The translations under genes and the position numbers were made by a program. The notes under the pieces are model-generated. The model worked only from the letters and a program-made list of their open reading frames with translations, did not search any database and was not told where the DNA came from. 64,000 nt of DNA from Amycolatopsis thermoflava N1165 (GTDB lineage Bacteria; Actinomycetota; Actinomycetes; Mycobacteriales; Pseudonocardiaceae): positions 1,725,731-1,789,730 of the forward strand of contig NZ_KI421511.1 in the NCBI RefSeq assembly GCF_000473265.1. The letters run 5' to 3'. This document shows positions 5,941-32,209 of the stretch, in pieces (the stretch's first letter is position 1; each line of letters starts with the position of its first letter).

Positions 5941-6777
5941 TCAGGCCTGCGGCCGGTCCTGCGGCATCGTCCCGCTGCCCGGCGACGACGACGGCGGCAT
6001 CGCCGCGGTCCGTTCCTGCGGCATCGTGGCGGTTTCGGCCGCGTGCCGCGGCGCCCCGGCGCCGGCTTCCCGTTCCGCGTCCTCGCGGCCGCGGCGGTAG
6101 GCCTCGGCCCTGGTGCGGGCCGACGGGATCTCCTCCTCGGCCCGGTTGAGCCAGCGGTCCCAGCGCTGCTGCATCGGCCGCATCAGGCCACCGCCCGCGC
6201 CGACGACCAGCACACCGCCGACGGTCGCGAGCAGTGCGATCAGCACCGGCCCGGTGACCGTGGTGGCCACGCCGATCTGGTTCAGCGCCGCGATGACACC
6301 GAAGGCGATCACCACGACCTGCACCATCTTCGCGACCAGCGGGCCGTAGCTGAGCCCGCCCATCGCGCCGCGGATCAGGTCGTGCAGCGCGCTGCCGACG
6401 GCCGCGGCGACGATCACGATGACGATGGCCACGATGGCGCGCGGCAGCCAGGCGACGATGGCCGCCAGGATGGCGCTGACCGGGTTCGGCCCGAACACGC
6501 CGAACGCCAACTGCAGGGCGATCAGCAGGACCGCGTAGTAGACGAGCGCGGCCAGCAGCCCGCTCGCGTCGTACCGGGACTGTTCCAGCGCTCGCTTGAT
6601 CCCGCCGCGCTCCACGGCCCGGTCGAAACCGACCCGTTCCAGCACGACTTTGACGACCTTGCGCAACGCCTTCGCGACGAGCCAGCCGACGACCAGCACA
6701 ACCAGGAATACGGCGAACTTCGGCAGGAACGTGATCACGGCTCCGACCGCGTCGTTCCAGAATTCGGTGAGGTTCAT
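5941..6777 (-). CDS. Mechanosensitive-channel-like (CmpX-type) membrane protein
   Basis: A 278-residue protein with about five membrane segments: FLPKFAVFLVVLVVGWLVAKAL, LLAALVYYAVLLIALQL, a long run near AIVAIVIVIVAAAVGSAL, MVQVVVIAFGVIAAL and LIALLATVGGVLVVGAGGG. Repeated helix-glycine patterns match the conserved TM-helix family that includes cyanobacterial CmpX, a relative of small-conductance mechanosensitive channels. The C-terminal 70 residues are a charged cytosolic tail. Location after glsB-like and gvp genes suggests osmotic or envelope stress function. Gating has not been shown for this subgroup. Confidence 0.75.
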   Translation of the reverse strand: MNLTEFWNDAVGAVITFLPKFAVFLVVLVVGWLVAKALRKVVKVVLERVGFDRAVERGGIKRALEQSRYDASGLLAALVYYAVLLIALQLAFGVFGPNPVSAILAAIVAWLPRAIVAIVIVIVAAAVGSALHDLIRGAMGGLSYGPLVAKMVQVVVIAFGVIAALNQIGVATTVTGPVLIALLATVGGVLVVGAGGGLMRPMQQRWDRWLNRAEEEIPSARTRAEAYRRGREDAEREAGAGAPRHAAETATMPQERTAAMPPSSSPGSGTMPQDRPQA

Positions 6778-6809
6778 CTTTCACATCCGTGAACTGAGGG
6801 GACCGGGCG

Positions 6810-6848
6810 CCCGGCCCGGGCCGGAAACCGTGTCCGGACCGGGCCGGG
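6810..6848 (-). terminator. GC-rich hairpin after the GlsB-like gene
   Basis: CCCGGCCCGG (6810-6819) pairs with CCGGGCCGGG (6839-6848), and an inner CCGG/CCGG pair extends the stem. It lies 12 bp beyond the GlsB-like stop and upstream of the channel gene. It may be a terminator, an attenuator or a 3' stabiliser; without a T-tract these cannot be told apart. Confidence 0.5.
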
Positions 6849-6860
6849 CCGGGAAGGGGG

Positions 6861-7142
6861 TCAGTGCATGAGCTTGCGCCGGCGGCCGCCCCGCAGGGCG
6901 GTGGCCAGCGAGACCCCGAGGACGGCGAGCACCAGCTGGGTCAGCACTTCGAGCCAGTCGATACCGTCGGTGTCGGCGTACCCGACACCCCGGGCGATCG
7001 CGGTGCCTGCGAAGGCCGCGACGATACCGACGACGATGGTCAGCCAGATCGGGATGTTCTGCTTCCCCGGCGCCAGCAGGCGGCCGAGAACACCGATGAC
7101 CAACCCCACGAGCAAGGCACTGATGATTCCGGATATAGCCAT
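6861..7142 (-). CDS. GlsB/YeaQ/YmgE family stress membrane protein
   Basis: A 93-residue protein beginning MAISGIISALLVGLVIGVLG, with GGAG 7 nt before the ATG. Three hydrophobic helices and the LLAPGKQNIPIWLTIVVGIV motif match the transglycosylase-associated-protein-like YeaQ/YmgE family. These proteins are small membrane stress proteins in many bacteria (GlsB anchors Asp23 in staphylococci). It is 65 bp downstream of gvpK on the same strand and may share its transcript. It ends with a basic GGRRRKLMH tail. Confidence 0.85.
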   Translation of the reverse strand: MAISGIISALLVGLVIGVLGRLLAPGKQNIPIWLTIVVGIVAAFAGTAIARGVGYADTDGIDWLEVLTQLVLAVLGVSLATALRGGRRRKLMH

Positions 7143-7207
7143 CGCAACTCCATTGTTCGGCGATGCTTCCGGATTCCCGGACAATTCCCGGCGAAACCTT
7201 TTTCACA

Positions 7208-7498
7208 TCACCGCCGATCCGACAGCAACGGGCCGAGCGGGCCGAGATCGATGTTCAATTCCTCCGGGGACACCCCGAAATGCTCGCACAGTTCCGTCAT
7301 GCGCTCGTCCAGGCGCATGAGCGTCAGCCCGATCGCCTCGACCTGCTCGTCGGTGAGGTCGCCGCGGTCGACCCGGCGCAGCGCCTGTTTCTCCATCAGT
7401 TGCCGCAGCAGTTCCACCACGGTCAGCACGAGGCCGGCCAGACCGCGCTCGACGCTGTCCGGATCGGTGTCGATGCGGCGCTTCGCGGGGTCAGTCAT
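7208..7498 (-). CDS. gvpK: Gas vesicle protein GvpK
   Basis: A 96-residue protein with the GvpK signature: SVERGLAGLVLTVVELLRQL then an arginine/aspartate-rich helix and LTDEQVEAIGLTLMRLDERM. GvpK is an essential accessory protein in gas vesicle assembly. Its start overlaps the gvpS stop by 8 bp. It is the last gvp gene, as in Streptomyces clusters. Confidence 0.93.
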   Translation of the reverse strand: MTDPAKRRIDTDPDSVERGLAGLVLTVVELLRQLMEKQALRRVDRGDLTDEQVEAIGLTLMRLDERMTELCEHFGVSPEELNIDLGPLGPLLSDRR

Positions 7499-25242: not shown

Positions 25243-27162
25243 TCACAGGCGCAGCCCGCGCCGTGGATCCGGCGTGGCGTCCAGCCGGCGCGCGCGTTCC
25301 GCCGCGAACGCCCGCCCCAGGCTCAGCCGCTCGGCGGGCGACACCGTGCGGCGCAGCTCGTTCAGCAGGCCGCGCTCCTCCGCGCGGATGTGGTCCTCCA
25401 CAACGGTTTCCAGGCGCAGCAACGCCTTCTCCGAAGCGGCCTCCGCCAGCGCGCGCACGTCGGCGGCGATGTCCGTCCCGGGCGCGGCCGGGTGCAGGAC
25501 CCGCGAAGTCGCCGTGGCGTGGGCGGTCAGCAGCGACACCAGCTCACCCGCCAGCGCGGCCCGGTCGGCCTCGTCGTTGCGCAGCTCGCGGAACAGCTCC
25601 TCCATCCGCCGGTGGTCGGCCTGCACCAGCTCGGTCACGTCGGTGCCTGCGGTCGCCGCCGGGGACGGGCGGGTCCAGCCGAACGTCAGCTCCACCGCCT
25701 GCCGCCAGTGCGCGTACTCCCGCTCGCGGCGGGACGGGTCCATCTCCGGCAGCCACTGACCGGCGCGGTGCCAGTTGCGCCGCAGCCCCTCCAGGTCCGG
25801 CCAGTACCCGACCGACAGCCCCGCCGCGTAGGCCGCGCCCAGCGACACGGTCTCGGCCACCATCGGGCGCACCACCGGCACGTCCAGGACGTCCGCGACG
25901 AACTGCATCAGCAGGTTGTCCGCGGTCATCCCGCCGTCGACGCGCAGTGTGGACAACGCGAGCCCGGAGTCGGCGTTCATCGCCTCCACCACCTCGCGCG
26001 TCTGCCAGCCGGTGGCCTCCAGCACCGCCCGCGCCAGGTGCCCCTTGGTGATGTAGGAGGTGAGCCCGGCGATCACGCCGCGCGCCTCGCTGTGCCAGTG
26101 CGGCGCGAACAACCCCGAGAACGCCGGCACGATGTAGCAACCGCCGTTGTCCTCGACCGTCCGCGCCAGCGTCTCGATCTCCGGCGCGCTGCCGATCAGG
26201 CCGAGCCCGTCGCGGAACCACTGGACCAGCGACCCGGTGACGGCGATCGAGCCTTCCAGCGCGTACACCGCGGGCTCCTCGCCGATGCGGAACCCGACCG
26301 TGGTGAGCATGCCGTGCGTGGACAGCACCGGCGTGGTCCCCGTGTTGAGCAGGAGGAAACTGCCGGTGCCGTACGTGCACTTCGCCTCGCCCGGCGCGAA
26401 GCACGTCTGGCCGAACAACGCGGCCTGCTGGTCGCCGAGCGCGGCGGCGATCCGGATCCCCGGCACCACCCGCGACGTCGTGCCGTACACCTCGGTGGAC
26501 GAGCGGATCTCCGGCAGCATCGCGCGCGGCACGTCGAAGAACTCCAGCAGCTCGTCGTCCCAGGACAGCGTCCGCAGGTTCATCAGCATCGTGCGCGAGG
26601 CGTTGGTGACGTCGGTGACGTGCAGGCCGCCGTCCGGCCCGCCGGTGAGATTCCAGATCAGCCAGCTCTCGATCGTGCCGAACAGCACGTCCCCGCGCTC
26701 GGCCCGCTCGCGCAGCCCCGGCATGTGCTCCAGCTGCCAGCGGATGCGCGGCGCCGAGAAGTACGTCGCCAGCGGCAGCCCGCACAGCCGCCGGACGCGG
26801 TCCGCGCCCGGCTCGCGGGCCAGCGCCTCGACCATCGCGTCGGTGCGCGTGTCCTGCCACACGATCGCCCGCCCCACGGGCACGCCCGTGTGCCGGTCCC
26901 ACAGCACGGTCGTCTCGCGCTGGTTGGCGATGCCGAGCGCGGCGACCTGCTCCGCGCCGATGCCCGCGTCGGCCAGCGCCTGCGGCACGATCCGGCCGAG
27001 GTTGCGCCAGATCTCGGTCGCGTCGTGCTCGACCCAGCCCGGGCGCGGGAAGTGCTGCTGGTGCTCGCGCTGCGCCACGGACACCAGCCGCCCGCGGGCG
27101 TCGAACAGGATGCACCGGGTCGACGTGGTGCCCTGGTCGACCGCCATCACGTAGTGCTGCAC
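25243..27162 (-). CDS. Glycerol kinase fused to a hemerythrin-like (HHE) domain
   Basis: A 639-residue protein, about 135 longer than ordinary GlpK. Residues 1-500 are a FGGY-type glycerol kinase: [51 protein letters not shown] and [18 protein letters not shown]. Residues about 507-630 are helical and HHE-like: [10 protein letters not shown] (H517), TAHATAT (H548), H557 and [12 protein letters not shown] (H591, E595). Some ligand positions are altered (HxxxE reads HxxxT; no clear histidine in the second helix), so metal binding is uncertain. It is downstream of the IclR gene and near a second, ordinary glpK. Kinase function is likely; the sensor-like tail is unusual. Confidence 0.85.
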
Positions 27163-27177
27163 CGGATCACCTCCTCC

Positions 27178-27939
27178 TCACCGGGACGCGACGAGGTCGC
27201 GGGAGACCGCCCTGGCCGCGTCGCGGACCTGCTCCAGCAGCCGCGGTTTCGGGTGCCCGCTGGGCTCGCAGATCCGGTCCTCGGCGCCGGAGACGCCGAT
27301 CGCGCCGACCACGATGCCACCGTGCCCGCGGATGGGCGCGGCGATCCCGGCCTCGCCGGGCACCATCTCGCCGCGCTCGGCCGCCCAGCCTGCCCGGCGG
27401 ACCTCGGCCAGCGCGCGGGCGACCGCGGCAGGCGGCAGGGTGCGCCGGGTGTAGGCCTCCGGCCCGGCCGCGCGCCAGGACGCCAGCAGCGCGGCGTCGT
27501 AGGCGAGCAGCACCTTGCCCAGCGCGGTGGCGTGCAGCGGCAGCATCGCGCCGACGTCCAGGGTCTGCGGGCTGTCGTCCGGGCGGAACACGTGGTGCAC
27601 CACCAGCACCCGGCCCTCCAGCGGCGCGCCGATGCGCACCGCCTCGCCGCTGCGGGCGGCCAGCGCGTCGGCCCAGTTGATGGCGCGGGAGCGCAGCTCG
27701 TTCACGTCGAGGTAGCTGCTGCCCAGGTGCAGCAGGGCGGCGCCGAGCTGGTACTTGCCGGTGTCGCGGTCCTGCTCGACGAACCCGACGCCGGCGAGGG
27801 TGCGCAGGATGCCGTGCGCGGTGCCCTTGGCCAGCTCGAGCGACTCGGCGATCTCCACGACGCCGAGGCGCCCGGAACCGCGCGCCAGCAGCCGGAGGAT
27901 CGCGGCGGCGCGCTCGATGGACTGGATGGGACCCGGCAC
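27178..27939 (-). CDS. IclR family regulator of the glycerol locus
   Basis: About 253 residues from GTG 27939. The winged helix spans 5-65 (SIERAAAILRLLARGSGRLG, IAESLELAKGTAHGILRTLA) and the GAF-like effector domain 80-250 (MLPLHATALGKVLLAY, GIAAPIRGHGGIVVGAIGVS). It lies between the GlpK-HHE gene and glpF. Two copies of a TTCGACA dyad upstream are the likely binding sites. In Streptomyces the IclR protein GylR controls glycerol genes in the same way. Confidence 0.9.
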   Translation of the reverse strand: MPGPIQSIERAAAILRLLARGSGRLGVVEIAESLELAKGTAHGILRTLAGVGFVEQDRDTGKYQLGAALLHLGSSYLDVNELRSRAINWADALAARSGEAVRIGAPLEGRVLVVHHVFRPDDSPQTLDVGAMLPLHATALGKVLLAYDAALLASWRAAGPEAYTRRTLPPAAVARALAEVRRAGWAAERGEMVPGEAGIAAPIRGHGGIVVGAIGVSGAEDRICEPSGHPKPRLLEQVRDAARAVSRDLVASR

Positions 27940-27966: not shown

Positions 27967-28014
27967 GGTTCGACAATGTCGAACCGCACTTCCGAGTGTT
28001 CGACAATGCCGACC
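27967..28014. promoter_or_regulatory. Two IclR-type operators upstream of glpF
   Basis: The perfect dyad GGTTCGACAATGTCGAACC (27967-27985, centre 27976) is followed 30 bp on by the near copy GTTCGACAATGCCGACC (27998-28014, centre 28006). Three helical turns between centres place both copies on one face of the DNA. They lie between the divergent regulator and glpF. A weak glpF promoter (TTGCCG 28023-28028, CATAGC 28045-28050) lies just downstream. Confidence 0.75.
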
Positions 28015-28094
28015 ACCGCGCGTTGCCGCGGTCTCACCGCCGGTCATAGCTTCGGCGTCACCAACGGGGGAACCGGTCCTTTGTGGAGGAAGCA

Positions 28095-28910
28095 ATGACG
28101 CGAAGCCTCAAGGCTCACGGACTCGCCGGCGAACTCGCCGCCGAGTTCGTGGGGACGATGATCCTCATCCTGTTCGGATGCGGGGTGGTGGCCCAGGTGT
28201 CGGCCGCCGGCATCGGGGACCACGACAGCATCGCCTGGGCCTGGGGCATCGGCGTCACGCTGGGCGTCTACGTCGCATCGCGGATCAGCGGCGCCCACCT
28301 CAACCCCGCGATCACCGTCGCGCTCGCCGTGTTCCAGGGCTTCTCCTGGCGCAAGGTGGCGCCCTACGCGCTGGCCCAGACCGCCGGCGCGTTCGTCGCC
28401 GCGCTGCTGGTGCGCTGGAACTACACCGAGGTCCTGAACGCCGTCGACCCGGGCCTGACCATCAAGACCCAGGGCGTGTTCTCGACCCTGCCGGGCAACG
28501 GCACCCTGCCGGTGGGCGACTGGGGCGCCTTCCGCGACCAGGTGATCGGCACCGCGATCCTGGCGCTGGTCATCTTCGCGATCACCGACCTGCGCAACAC
28601 CGCGCCGGCGGCCAACCTCGGCCCGGTCGTCGTCGGCTTCCTGGTCGTCGCGATCGGCATGGCCTGGGGCACCAACGCCGGCTACGCCATCAACCCGGCC
28701 CGCGACTTCGGGCCGCGCCTGGCGTCCTGGCTGACCGGCTACGACACCGCGTGGAGCGACCAGTACGGCAACCCGTACTGGTGGGTCCCGATCCTCGCGC
28801 CGATCGTCGGCGCGGTCATCGGCGGCGCGATCTACAAGTACTTCATCAGCCGCCACCTGCCCCGCACCGAGGACATCGGGCCCGCCAAGGCCCTCGAGCC
28901 CACCGCCTGA
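28095..28910 (+). CDS. glpF: Glycerol uptake facilitator GlpF
   Basis: A 271-residue MIP/aquaglyceroporin with six membrane helices and two NPA boxes: SGAHLNPAITVAL and GYAINPARDFGPRLA. The aspartate after the second NPA (NPARD) marks glyceroporins rather than water-only channels. The ATG at 28095 has GGAGG 5 nt before it. It is first in the glpF-glpK-glpD operon. Confidence 0.95.
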   Translation: MTRSLKAHGLAGELAAEFVGTMILILFGCGVVAQVSAAGIGDHDSIAWAWGIGVTLGVYVASRISGAHLNPAITVALAVFQGFSWRKVAPYALAQTAGAFVAALLVRWNYTEVLNAVDPGLTIKTQGVFSTLPGNGTLPVGDWGAFRDQVIGTAILALVIFAITDLRNTAPAANLGPVVVGFLVVAIGMAWGTNAGYAINPARDFGPRLASWLTGYDTAWSDQYGNPYWWVPILAPIVGAVIGGAIYKYFISRHLPRTEDIGPAKALEPTA

Positions 28911-28928
28911 GTTCACGAAGGAGTGACC

Positions 28929-30440
28929 ATGCCCGATTTCGTCGGTGCCGTCGACCAGGGCACCACCAGCACCCGGTTCATGATCTTCGACCACGGCGGC
29001 AACGAGATCGCCCGCCACCAGCTGGAGCACGAGCAGATCCTGCCCCGGCCGGGCTGGGTCGAGCACAACCCCACCGAGATCTGGGAGCGCACCCGCGCGG
29101 TGATCGCGAGCGCGCTGACCAAGGCGAACCTGACGGTCGCCGACCTGGCCGCGCTGGGCATCACCAACCAGCGCGAGACCACCGTGGTGTGGAACCGGCG
29201 CACCGGCCGCCCCTACACCAACGCCATCGTCTGGCAGGACACCCGCACCGACCGGATCGCCTCCGCGCTGGAGCGGGGCGGCCAGGGCGAGGTGATCCGC
29301 CGCAAGGCCGGGCTGCCGCCCGCCACGTATTTCTCCGGCGGCAAGCTGCAGTGGATCCTGGAGAACGTCGACGGGGTCCGGGCCGACGCGGAGAACGGCG
29401 ACGCCCTGTTCGGCACCACCGACAGCTGGCTGATCTGGAACCTCACCGGCGGGGTGGACGGCGGCGTGCACGTCACCGACGTCACCAACGCCTCCCGCAC
29501 CATGCTGATGGACCTGGAGAAGCTGGACTGGGACGACGAGCTGCTGTCGTTCTTCGGCATCCCGCGCCGGATGCTGCCGGAGATCAAGCCGTCGTCCGGC
29601 CACTTCGGCACCACCCGCGCCGACGGACCGCTCGGCGGCGAGATCGCGATCACCGGCGTGCTCGGCGATCAGCAGGCGGCCACCGTCGGCCAGGTGTGCT
29701 TCCGCCCCGGCGAGGCCAAGAACACCTACGGCACCGGCAACTTCCTGCTGCTCAACACCGGCCACGAGCTGGTGCGGTCGAAGCACGGGCTGCTCACCAC
29801 CCTGTGCTACCAATTCGGCGACGACAAGCCGGTGTACGCGCTGGAAGGCTCCATCGCGGTCACCGGGTCGGCGGTGCAGTGGCTGCGCGACCAGCTCGGC
29901 ATCATCAGCGGCGCCTCGCAGAGCGAGACCCTGGCCCGGCAGGTCGAGGACAACGGCGGGATCTACTTCGTCCCGGCGTTCTCCGGGCTGTTCGCGCCGT
30001 ACTGGCGTTCCGACGCCCGCGGCGCGATCGTCGGCCTGACCCGCGCCACCACCAACGCCCACCTGGCGCGCGCCACCCTGGAATCGATCTGCTACCAGAC
30101 GCGCGACGTCGTGGAGGCCATGCAGAACGACTCCGGCGTCACGCTCGACGTGCTGCGCGTCGACGGCGGCGTCACCGCGAACGAGCTGTGCATGCAGCTG
30201 CAGGCGGACATCCTGGGCGTGCCGGTGTCCCGGCCGGTCGTCGCCGAGACCACCGCGCTCGGGGCCGCCTACGCGGCCGGGCTGGCCGCCGGGTTCTGGC
30301 GGTCGACCGACGAGCTGGAACAGAACTGGAACGAGGACCGGCGCTGGGAGCCGTCGTGGAACGACGCCCAGCGCGCCGAGGGGTACGCCGGCTGGCAGAA
30401 GGCCGTCGGCCGCACCCTCGACTGGGTCGACGTCGAGTGA
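28929..30440 (+). CDS. glpK: Glycerol kinase GlpK
   Basis: A 503-residue ATP:glycerol 3-phosphotransferase of normal length. Motifs are [56 protein letters not shown] and [11 protein letters not shown]. The start at 28929 has AAGGAG 5 nt upstream; 18 bp separate it from glpF. It makes glycerol 3-phosphate in the cytoplasm for GlpD. Confidence 0.95.
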
Positions 30441-30523: not shown

Positions 30524-32209
30524 GTGTCCCAACCCCTGTCCCCCGCCTACCGCGGCGACGCGCTGCGGCGGCTGGCGAACGAAGAGTTCGACGTGCTCGT
30601 CGTCGGTGGCGGCGTGACCGGCGCGGGCGCCGCGCTGGACGCGGCTTCGCGCGGGCTGTCGGTCGCCCTGGTCGAGGCCCGCGACCTGGCCGCGGGCACG
30701 TCCAGCCGGTCGAGCAAGCTGATCCACGGCGGTCTGCGCTACCTGGAGCAGCTGGACTTCAAGCTGGTGCGGGAAGCGCTGCGGGAACGCGGGCTGCTGC
30801 TGCGCACCCTCGCGCCGCACCTGGTGCGGCCGGTGAAGTTCCTGGTGCCGCTCCAGCACCGGGTCTGGGAGCGCGGCTACATCGGGGCCGGGGTCACGTT
30901 GTACGACACGCTCGGCGGGGCGCGGGCGCTGCCGCGGCACCGGCACCTGAGCCGGCGGCGCGCGTTCGAGGTGGCGCCCGGCCTCGCCGACGACGCGCTG
31001 ATCGGCGCGATCCAGTACTACGACGCGCAGGTCGACGACGCGCGGCACACGATGATGATCGCGCGCACGGCGGCCGACCAGGGCGCGGCGGTGGTCACCA
31101 GGACGCGGGTGACCTCGCTGGTCCGCGACGGCGAGCGGGTCGTGGGCGCGCGGGTCACCGACCGGGAGAGCGGCGCGGAGATCACCGTCCGGGCGCGGGT
31201 GGTGATCGCCGCGACCGGGGTGTGGAGCGACGACATCGCCGAGGCCGCCGGCGTCGAGAAGCCGTTCACGGTGCGCGCGTCGAAGGGCATCCACCTGGTG
31301 GTGCCGCGGGAGAAGATCGACCTGGACACCGGGCTGATCCTGCGCACCGAGAAGAGCGTGCTGTTCGTGATCCCGTGGGGCCCGCACTGGATCGTCGGCA
31401 CCACGGACACCGAGTGGGACCTGGACCGCGAGCACCCGGCGGCCAGCCGCGCGGACGTGGACTACGTGCTCGACCACGTGAACGCGGTGCTGCGCAAGCC
31501 GTTGACGCGCGACGACATCGAGGGCGTGTACGCCGGGCTGCGGCCGCTGCTGGCGGCGAAGGCGACCGCGACGACGAAGCTGTCGCGGGAGCACGCGGTG
31601 GCGCACCCGGTGCCGGGACTGGTGGTCGTGGCCGGTGGGAAGTACACGACGTACCGGGTGATGGCCGCGGACGCGGTGGACGCGGCGATGTCCGATGTGG
31701 ACCGTCCGGCGCCGCCGTCGTGGACGGACAAGCTGCCGATCGTGGGCGCGCGCGGGTACGCGGAGGTCTGGGAGGGCCGGTACGCGCTCGCGCGGCGGGC
31801 GGGCCTGCCGGTGGCGCGGATCGAGCACCTGCTGGGCCGGTACGGCACGGCGGTCGAGGAGGTGCTGGCCCTGGTCGGTGAGCGGCCGGAGCTGGGCGAG
31901 GAGATCCCGGGCGCGCCGGACTACCTGAAGGCCGAGGCGGTGTACGCCGTGACACACGAAGGCGCGCTGCACCTGGAGGACGTGCTCACGCGGCGGACGC
32001 GGATCTCGATCGAGCAGCGGGACCGCGGACTGGCGGCGGCGCCCGCGGTGGCCGACCTGATCGCCCCGGAGCTGGGCTGGACCGCCGAGCGCCGCGACCG
32101 CGAGGTGGCGCACTACCGGGCCCGCGTCGAGGCGGAACGCACCGCCCAGGAAGCCCCCGACGACGCGACGGCGAACGAACGCCGCCTGGCGGTGCCCGCG
32201 CTGGGTTGA
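30524..32209 (+). CDS. glpD: Glycerol-3-phosphate dehydrogenase GlpD
   Basis: A 561-residue FAD enzyme starting GTG 30524 (GAGGAG upstream). The FAD-binding fold is FDVLVVGGGVTGAGAALDAA with GTSSRSSKLIHGGLRYLEQL. Substrate-domain segments FVIPWGPHWIVGTTDTEWD and VVAGGKYTTYRVMAADAVD follow, then a C-terminal helical cap (about 400-545). It oxidises glycerol 3-phosphate to dihydroxyacetone phosphate and feeds electrons to quinone at the membrane. Last gene of the operon. The open frame extends far upstream, but that part only shadows glpF and glpK. Confidence 0.95.
   Translation: MSQPLSPAYRGDALRRLANEEFDVLVVGGGVTGAGAALDAASRGLSVALVEARDLAAGTSSRSSKLIHGGLRYLEQLDFKLVREALRERGLLLRTLAPHLVRPVKFLVPLQHRVWERGYIGAGVTLYDTLGGARALPRHRHLSRRRAFEVAPGLADDALIGAIQYYDAQVDDARHTMMIARTAADQGAAVVTRTRVTSLVRDGERVVGARVTDRESGAEITVRARVVIAATGVWSDDIAEAAGVEKPFTVRASKGIHLVVPREKIDLDTGLILRTEKSVLFVIPWGPHWIVGTTDTEWDLDREHPAASRADVDYVLDHVNAVLRKPLTRDDIEGVYAGLRPLLAAKATATTKLSREHAVAHPVPGLVVVAGGKYTTYRVMAADAVDAAMSDVDRPAPPSWTDKLPIVGARGYAEVWEGRYALARRAGLPVARIEHLLGRYGTAVEEVLALVGERPELGEEIPGAPDYLKAEAVYAVTHEGALHLEDVLTRRTRISIEQRDRGLAAAPAVADLIAPELGWTAERRDREVAHYRARVEAERTAQEAPDDATANERRLAVPALG

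Follow-up and report, generated by a model that had tools for sequence, protein, structure and literature searches.

What becomes of a hemerythrin-like domain that is joined to an enzyme of central metabolism, and does it still bind metal and influence the enzyme that carries it? This question is raised by a gene for a second glycerol kinase, GlpK2, in a 64,000-nucleotide stretch of the genome of the soil actinobacterium Amycolatopsis thermoflava N1165 (contig NZ_KI421511.1, positions 1,725,731 to 1,789,730; hereafter the window, in whose own numbering coordinates are given). A preliminary description had placed a 639-residue open reading frame at this position without naming its strand; the frame exists, is read from the minus strand, and encodes a glycerol kinase followed by a C-terminal domain of the HHE type. 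As described below, this fusion is conserved and has a single origin on the kinase tree, and its tail retains four of the seven canonical iron ligands of hemerythrins. Our preferred reading, which is tentative (a probability of roughly 0.42), is that the tail is a regulatory module that may bind one metal and is carried by a kinase that probably makes the inducer of its own locus. The gene and its two parts are as follows.

25243..27162, minus strand: fused gene for GlpK2, a glycerol kinase with a C-terminal HHE-type domain; 639 amino acids, GTG start at 27162
25672..27162, minus strand: kinase part, residues 1-497; match to the GlpK equivalog model, active-site positions conserved with other glycerol kinases
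25246..25671, minus strand: HHE tail, residues 498-639, 142 amino acids; match to PF01814, with H517, H548, H591 and E596 retained

Judged from its sequence, the kinase part is a complete glycerol kinase, as had been proposed. The fused protein scored 696.8 bits against TIGR01311 (cut-off 590.35, model positions 1-496 covered) and 709.9 bits against NF000756 (cut-off 498, model positions 4-499 covered), and the best solved relative of the kinase part by sequence is 2d4w (662.8 bits). Residues R82, E83, W102, Y134, D244, Q245, T266, G267, F269 and G411, which we take to be substrate- and ATP-site positions, are invariant across 51 aligned kinase rows (49 of the 80 loci introduced below plus both kinases of the window). 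A Shine-Dalgarno-like AGGAGGTGAT lies directly 5' of the GTG start, and three matches in the A. thermoflava genome exceed the TIGR01311 cut-off.

The tail is related to hemerythrins, as the preliminary description had suggested. A hidden Markov model (HMM) search with the tail alone narrowly passed the cut-off of the PF01814 Hemerythrin family (26.8 bits against 25.3, E 7.7e-6), the whole fused protein scored below it (21.8 bits), and at E<=1e-3 the family matched all 27 aligned fused tails (best 3.4e-9). The match lies near the edge of the model, because a PF01814 search of the A. thermoflava genome listed three places elsewhere but not the tail. Those places (L001, L002 and L003) are additional HHE-domain matches that exceed the Pfam cut-off, and they were not recovered by the fused-tail search at E<=0.01. 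A scan of the tail alone against NCBIfam gave no match, and the tail profile recovered no hemerythrin among Protein Data Bank sequences; among 72,556 plasmid records it matched three, two annotated as hemerythrin domain proteins and one unannotated. The structure prediction yields a bundle, possibly of the four-helix kind, whose third helix is shortened to 11 residues. The HMM match, the predicted fold, the full-length similarity to stand-alone HHE proteins and the conservation of 42 distinct tails together support both the tail architecture and its hemerythrin ancestry.

A search by similarity to the whole fused protein retrieved 80 loci, of which 26 are fused (610-657 amino acids); GlpK2 has the same whole kinase as other GlpK proteins (TIGR01311; 2d4w) but adds ~140 C-terminal residues, whereas the 54 unfused loci end at 498-521 amino acids. 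The fused loci belong to 22 Amycolatopsis, two Kibdelosporangium, one Actinosynnema sp. and one record labelled Rhodococcus rhodnii. In a survey of 297 genomes of the same bacterial family, 32 have, among the matches listed, an open frame of at least 600 amino acids that strongly matches the tail (E<=1e-22), and these 32 genomes are exactly the holders of the 32 best kinase matches (88-100% identity). The next kinases are at most 82% identical, and their genomes have weak or no tail matches among the matches listed; in all, 102 family genomes have a kinase match at E<=1e-230, and the 70 counted as tail-less were called so by the tail search alone, again among the matches listed. In a kinase tree of 82 rows (81 GlpK2 kinases plus GlpK1, the ordinary glycerol kinase of the window), all 27 fused rows fall into a single group (support 100/97), in which A. 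anabasis is the first branch and A. rhizosphaerae the next. The fusion is conserved, and on this tree it arose once. These counts also bear on the frameshift artefact that the preliminary description had considered: such an artefact, or one of annotation, is rejected in view of the presence of the fusion in relatives (26 of 80 loci, 32 of 297 family genomes) and by purifying selection on the tail. The record labelled R. rhodnii (L053, strain NRRL B-16535) clusters with Kibdelosporangium persicum in that tree and may be mislabelled.

In wider samples the tail profile matched, at E<=1e-12, 53 of 397 genomes of the order, some of which belong to the family, and 22 of 396 genomes of the phylum. 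Matches in frames of at least 600 amino acids came from 14 kinase-clade genomes and G550 in the order sample and from G000 and G623 in the phylum sample; no glpK lay within the 6 kb read in G550 or G623, or in G195, which has a 643-residue frame in the family sample. No further kinase fusion was found at E<=1e-12 in the order and phylum samples, and more diverged fusions could be missed because at most nine candidates per genome were scored in these tail-profile searches. A Nocardia anaemiae locus (L106) whose initial match ran to residue 631 was rejected as a fusion: its kinase ends at 505 amino acids, with no HHE frame seen beyond.

The closest non-fused kin of the tail are stand-alone HHE proteins of ~170 amino acids that belong to the same family and were collected from 19 loci (L114-L130, L132 and L133; some of the open frames are longer). 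They are separate genes, unlike the fused tail, can be aligned along its whole length and are 33-41% identical to the window tail. Their ligand motif, H-HxxxE-HxxxH-HxxxxE, is complete in 17 of the 18 readable proteins and accompanied by a full helix C, which sets them apart from the fused tails; L133 is without the second helix-C His, and L128 is masked. The canonical hemerythrin motif is H-HxxxE-HxxxH-HxxxxD (PMC9388753).

Comparison of 57 fused tails, 42 of them distinct, revealed which parts of this motif have been kept. The helix-A His517, the helix-B His548, the helix-D His591 and the last Glu, Glu596, are retained in 42/42 distinct tails. The helix-B (bridging) Glu is replaced by Thr in 40 tails, Ala in one and Ser in one, the window tail carrying T552 at this position of its stand-alone relatives; one helix-C His is kept in a single tail (1/42, that of A. 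anabasis) and the other in none (0/42). Thus four of the seven canonical positions remain, with E in place of the last D. We take the lost ligands to be the two helix-C ligands of Fe1 plus one bridging acid, and those left to be both His of Fe2, one Fe1 His and the other bridging acid. The Tyr of a 'VYP' motif found in the stand-alone proteins is kept in 0/42 fused tails, which have R (31), H (10) or G (1) at the aligned position, residue 557. Of the His residues proposed earlier as ligands, H517, H548 and H591 are invariant and stand at ligand positions, and H557 occupies no ligand position; the degeneracy of some ligands that had been suspected is real and larger than had been thought. A one-metal site built from the remaining residues is possible. 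In A. tucumanensis (L035), whose kinase is 99% identical to that of the window, Val replaces a near-invariant Glu preceding the last ligand, and the C terminus of the tail is shortened.

Selection on the two parts was compared by the ratio of nonsynonymous to synonymous substitution rates (dN/dS) over 351 pairs of fused genes, pairs that are not independent of one another, given their common ancestry. The tail is under purifying selection, albeit weaker than that on the kinase, because its median dN/dS is 0.34 (range 0.07-0.98) against 0.083, with no pair at or above 1. Within the tail, constraint is greater in helices A-B (0.27, with 7/351 pairs at 1 or above) and the helix-D region (0.25, 3/350 pairs) than in the decayed helix-C region, which is the least constrained (0.49, 79/331 pairs).

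The role that such a tail might play depends in part on the genes and sites beside it, which comprise the following.

27178..27939, minus strand: gylR-like gene for an IclR-family regulator; start at 27939 chosen (the mechanical open reading frame starts at 28095)
28095..28910, plus strand: glpF, glycerol facilitator, named by sequence and neighbourhood; ATG start chosen (the mechanical open reading frame starts at 28083)
28923..30440, plus strand: glpK1, ordinary glycerol kinase of 505 amino acids; HMM match
30524..32209, plus strand: glpD, glycerol-3-phosphate dehydrogenase, named by sequence and neighbourhood; GTG start at 30524 chosen
27997..28014, minus strand: predicted GylR operator site, identical at 18/18 positions to the minimal operator of Streptomyces clavuligerus
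27967..27984, minus strand: second GylR-operator-like site with 3 mismatches, start-to-start 30 bases from the first

The ordinary glpK noted earlier in this locus is real. The gylR-like gene lies 15 bases upstream of the fused gene, with which it probably forms one operon, and this unit is divergent from glpF-glpK1-glpD. A gylR relative adjoins GlpK2 in 78 of the 80 loci, the other two (L065 and L067) beginning merely 58 and 18 bases before the kinase. The layout glpK1-glpF-gylR-glpK2 is present in 26/26 fused and 35/54 unfused loci; unfused loci without it include many from Streptomyces that have no glpF or glpK1 in the fetched flank, as well as loci cut by contig ends. Two GylR-type sites with at most 3 mismatches were seen in the window, both in the divergent region that separates gylR from glpF, when 0.04 were expected from shuffles of the window; a site of this quality also occurs in the fetched stretch of 26/26 fused and 39/54 unfused loci, a plain count to which the shuffle expectation does not extend.

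The layout itself has been published: gylR and another glpK lie upstream of glpFKD in over half of Amycolatopsis genomes, and the minimal 18-bp GylR operator, to which the first window site is identical, was defined by experiment in S. clavuligerus (PMC9732521). In that species GylR acts as a repressor of glp and of gylR itself, and glycerol 3-phosphate and dihydroxyacetone phosphate release it (PMC9732521). Because a gylR-like gene adjoins the fused gene and S. clavuligerus GylR answers to glycerol 3-phosphate, the fused kinase is, by homology, probably co-produced with a repressor that responds to the kinase's own product. A division of labour between GlpK1 and GlpK2 is plausible, since their separate, divergent units share GylR-type operators. 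A GlpK (copy unspecified) was down-regulated under phosphate limitation in A. balhimycina (PMC3004843).

We therefore propose the following sequence of events only as a tentative model. A single event in an ancestor of Amycolatopsis and Kibdelosporangium would have fused a stand-alone HHE protein C-terminally to GlpK2. Subsequent decay would have stripped the diiron site of one bridging Glu and of both His of helix C but spared the other bridging acid and the His of helices A, B and D. The tail could now be a flexibly tethered regulatory module that holds a single metal ion via H517, H548, H591 and E596, and it may modulate or place the kinase that makes glycerol 3-phosphate, the presumed inducer that would release GylR from the glp promoters. 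A more specific version, in which the three-His-one-Glu site is a sensor that tunes the kinase directly and thereby lets metal or redox state determine how much glycerol 3-phosphate is made, is doubtful.

Several observations weigh against a metal-binding tail. The 27 positions that are invariant among the 42 distinct tails include many that are not ligands, and the enrichment of the four retained ligands is only moderate (0.006 by counting, for ligands chosen after the fact), because 20 of the 67 columns that are near-invariant in 18 stand-alone proteins also stay unchanged in 42/42 fused tails. In addition, the third helix of the model is short, the tail varies in length from 117 to 160 amino acids and its C termini differ, and relative to the kinase its dN/dS is raised about fourfold. 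The first of these points, like the short helix and the variable length, would suit a metal-free helical bundle that acts as a structural, oligomerisation or protein-interaction module, with the His and Glu residues kept for packing and hydrogen bonds. This is a realistic alternative that we hold as quite possible, although it has to accommodate four ligand positions, three of them His, that were kept in every distinct tail despite the loss of their diiron partners. The elevated dN/dS, the weak constraint on helix C and the variable lengths and C termini could also mean that the tail is decaying neutrally, of no benefit and no harm to the kinase. That explanation is improbable, as none of the 351 pairs reaches a tail dN/dS of 1, helices A, B and D are constrained, and the tail is carried by every one of the 32 family genomes (of 297) whose kinase is at least 88% identical. 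Finally, control of glycerol phosphorylation by a working diiron O2 or redox sensor, comparable to that of Bhr-DGC or DcrH, would agree with the hemerythrin-type sequence and predicted fold and with the redox responses of hemerythrin domains on other enzymes (PMC9388753), but this reading is very unlikely. A classical diiron O2 site, and with it an oxygen sensor of the usual form, is not expected because three of the seven canonical ligands are missing (in 42/42, 42/42 and 41/42 tails), and no fused tail keeps the Tyr found in the stand-alone motif.

Other hemerythrin-type domains provide points of comparison. Mka HLP of Mycobacterium kansasii (6q09), an iron-bound HHE protein with nitric oxide peroxidase activity, is 22% identical to the tail and not fused, and its two irons are bound by four His, two Glu and one Tyr. 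In DcrH, Bhr-DGC, Bhr-HD-GYP and a P1B-5 ATPase a hemerythrin-type domain is likewise fused to another protein, but these domains keep complete or near-complete diiron motifs whereas the site of the GlpK2 tail is incomplete, and the characterised hemerythrin-fused proteins described in that source are receptors, cyclic di-GMP enzymes and a metal ATPase (PMC9388753), unlike GlpK2, whose fusion partner is a central-metabolism kinase. A 2016 survey reported 56 architectures of long O2-binding hemerythrins, among which the fusion might be included, and found O2-binding hemerythrins to be negligibly few in Actinobacteria (PMC4919030). The main text of the paper on the gylR/glpFKD locus contains neither the word hemerythrin nor the word fusion (PMC9732521), and searches of one open-access library found no paper on a glycerol kinase-hemerythrin fusion.

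A hemerythrin-type domain stably fused to a kinase of core carbon metabolism constitutes a natural experiment in dismantling a diiron site and in what is kept, with a graded loss that can be followed from A. anabasis through A. rhizosphaerae to the rest and with kin of the donor still present. If the one-metal sensor were true, a metabolic enzyme would be a metal- or oxygen-aware gatekeeper of its own locus; should the tail prove inert, it would still illustrate clearly that such a fusion can be tolerated. Regulation of glycerol entry at the kinase step would also matter for the growth of antibiotic producers on glycerol.

As to the donor, it is only weakly suggested that the fusion replaced a stand-alone gene: two of the 32 fused genomes (G015, 56%; G286, 55%) also hold a copy at least 55% identical to the L120 query, and more distant copies are present in several others. 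A donor gene situated next to glpK before fusion finds no support, as the 14-kb neighbourhoods of two stand-alone HHE genes (L156 and L157) contain no glpK; they also differ from each other. The L156 stand-alone gene, at 6732-7232, is seemingly without the second helix-C His, and near it a gyrase A-like gene (L156:8332-12105) has, by eye, an apparent intein insertion. In L157 (6790-7702) the stand-alone HHE gene is directly followed by a frame that by eye is OsmC/Ohr-like, a hint that the donor family may work in a redox context.
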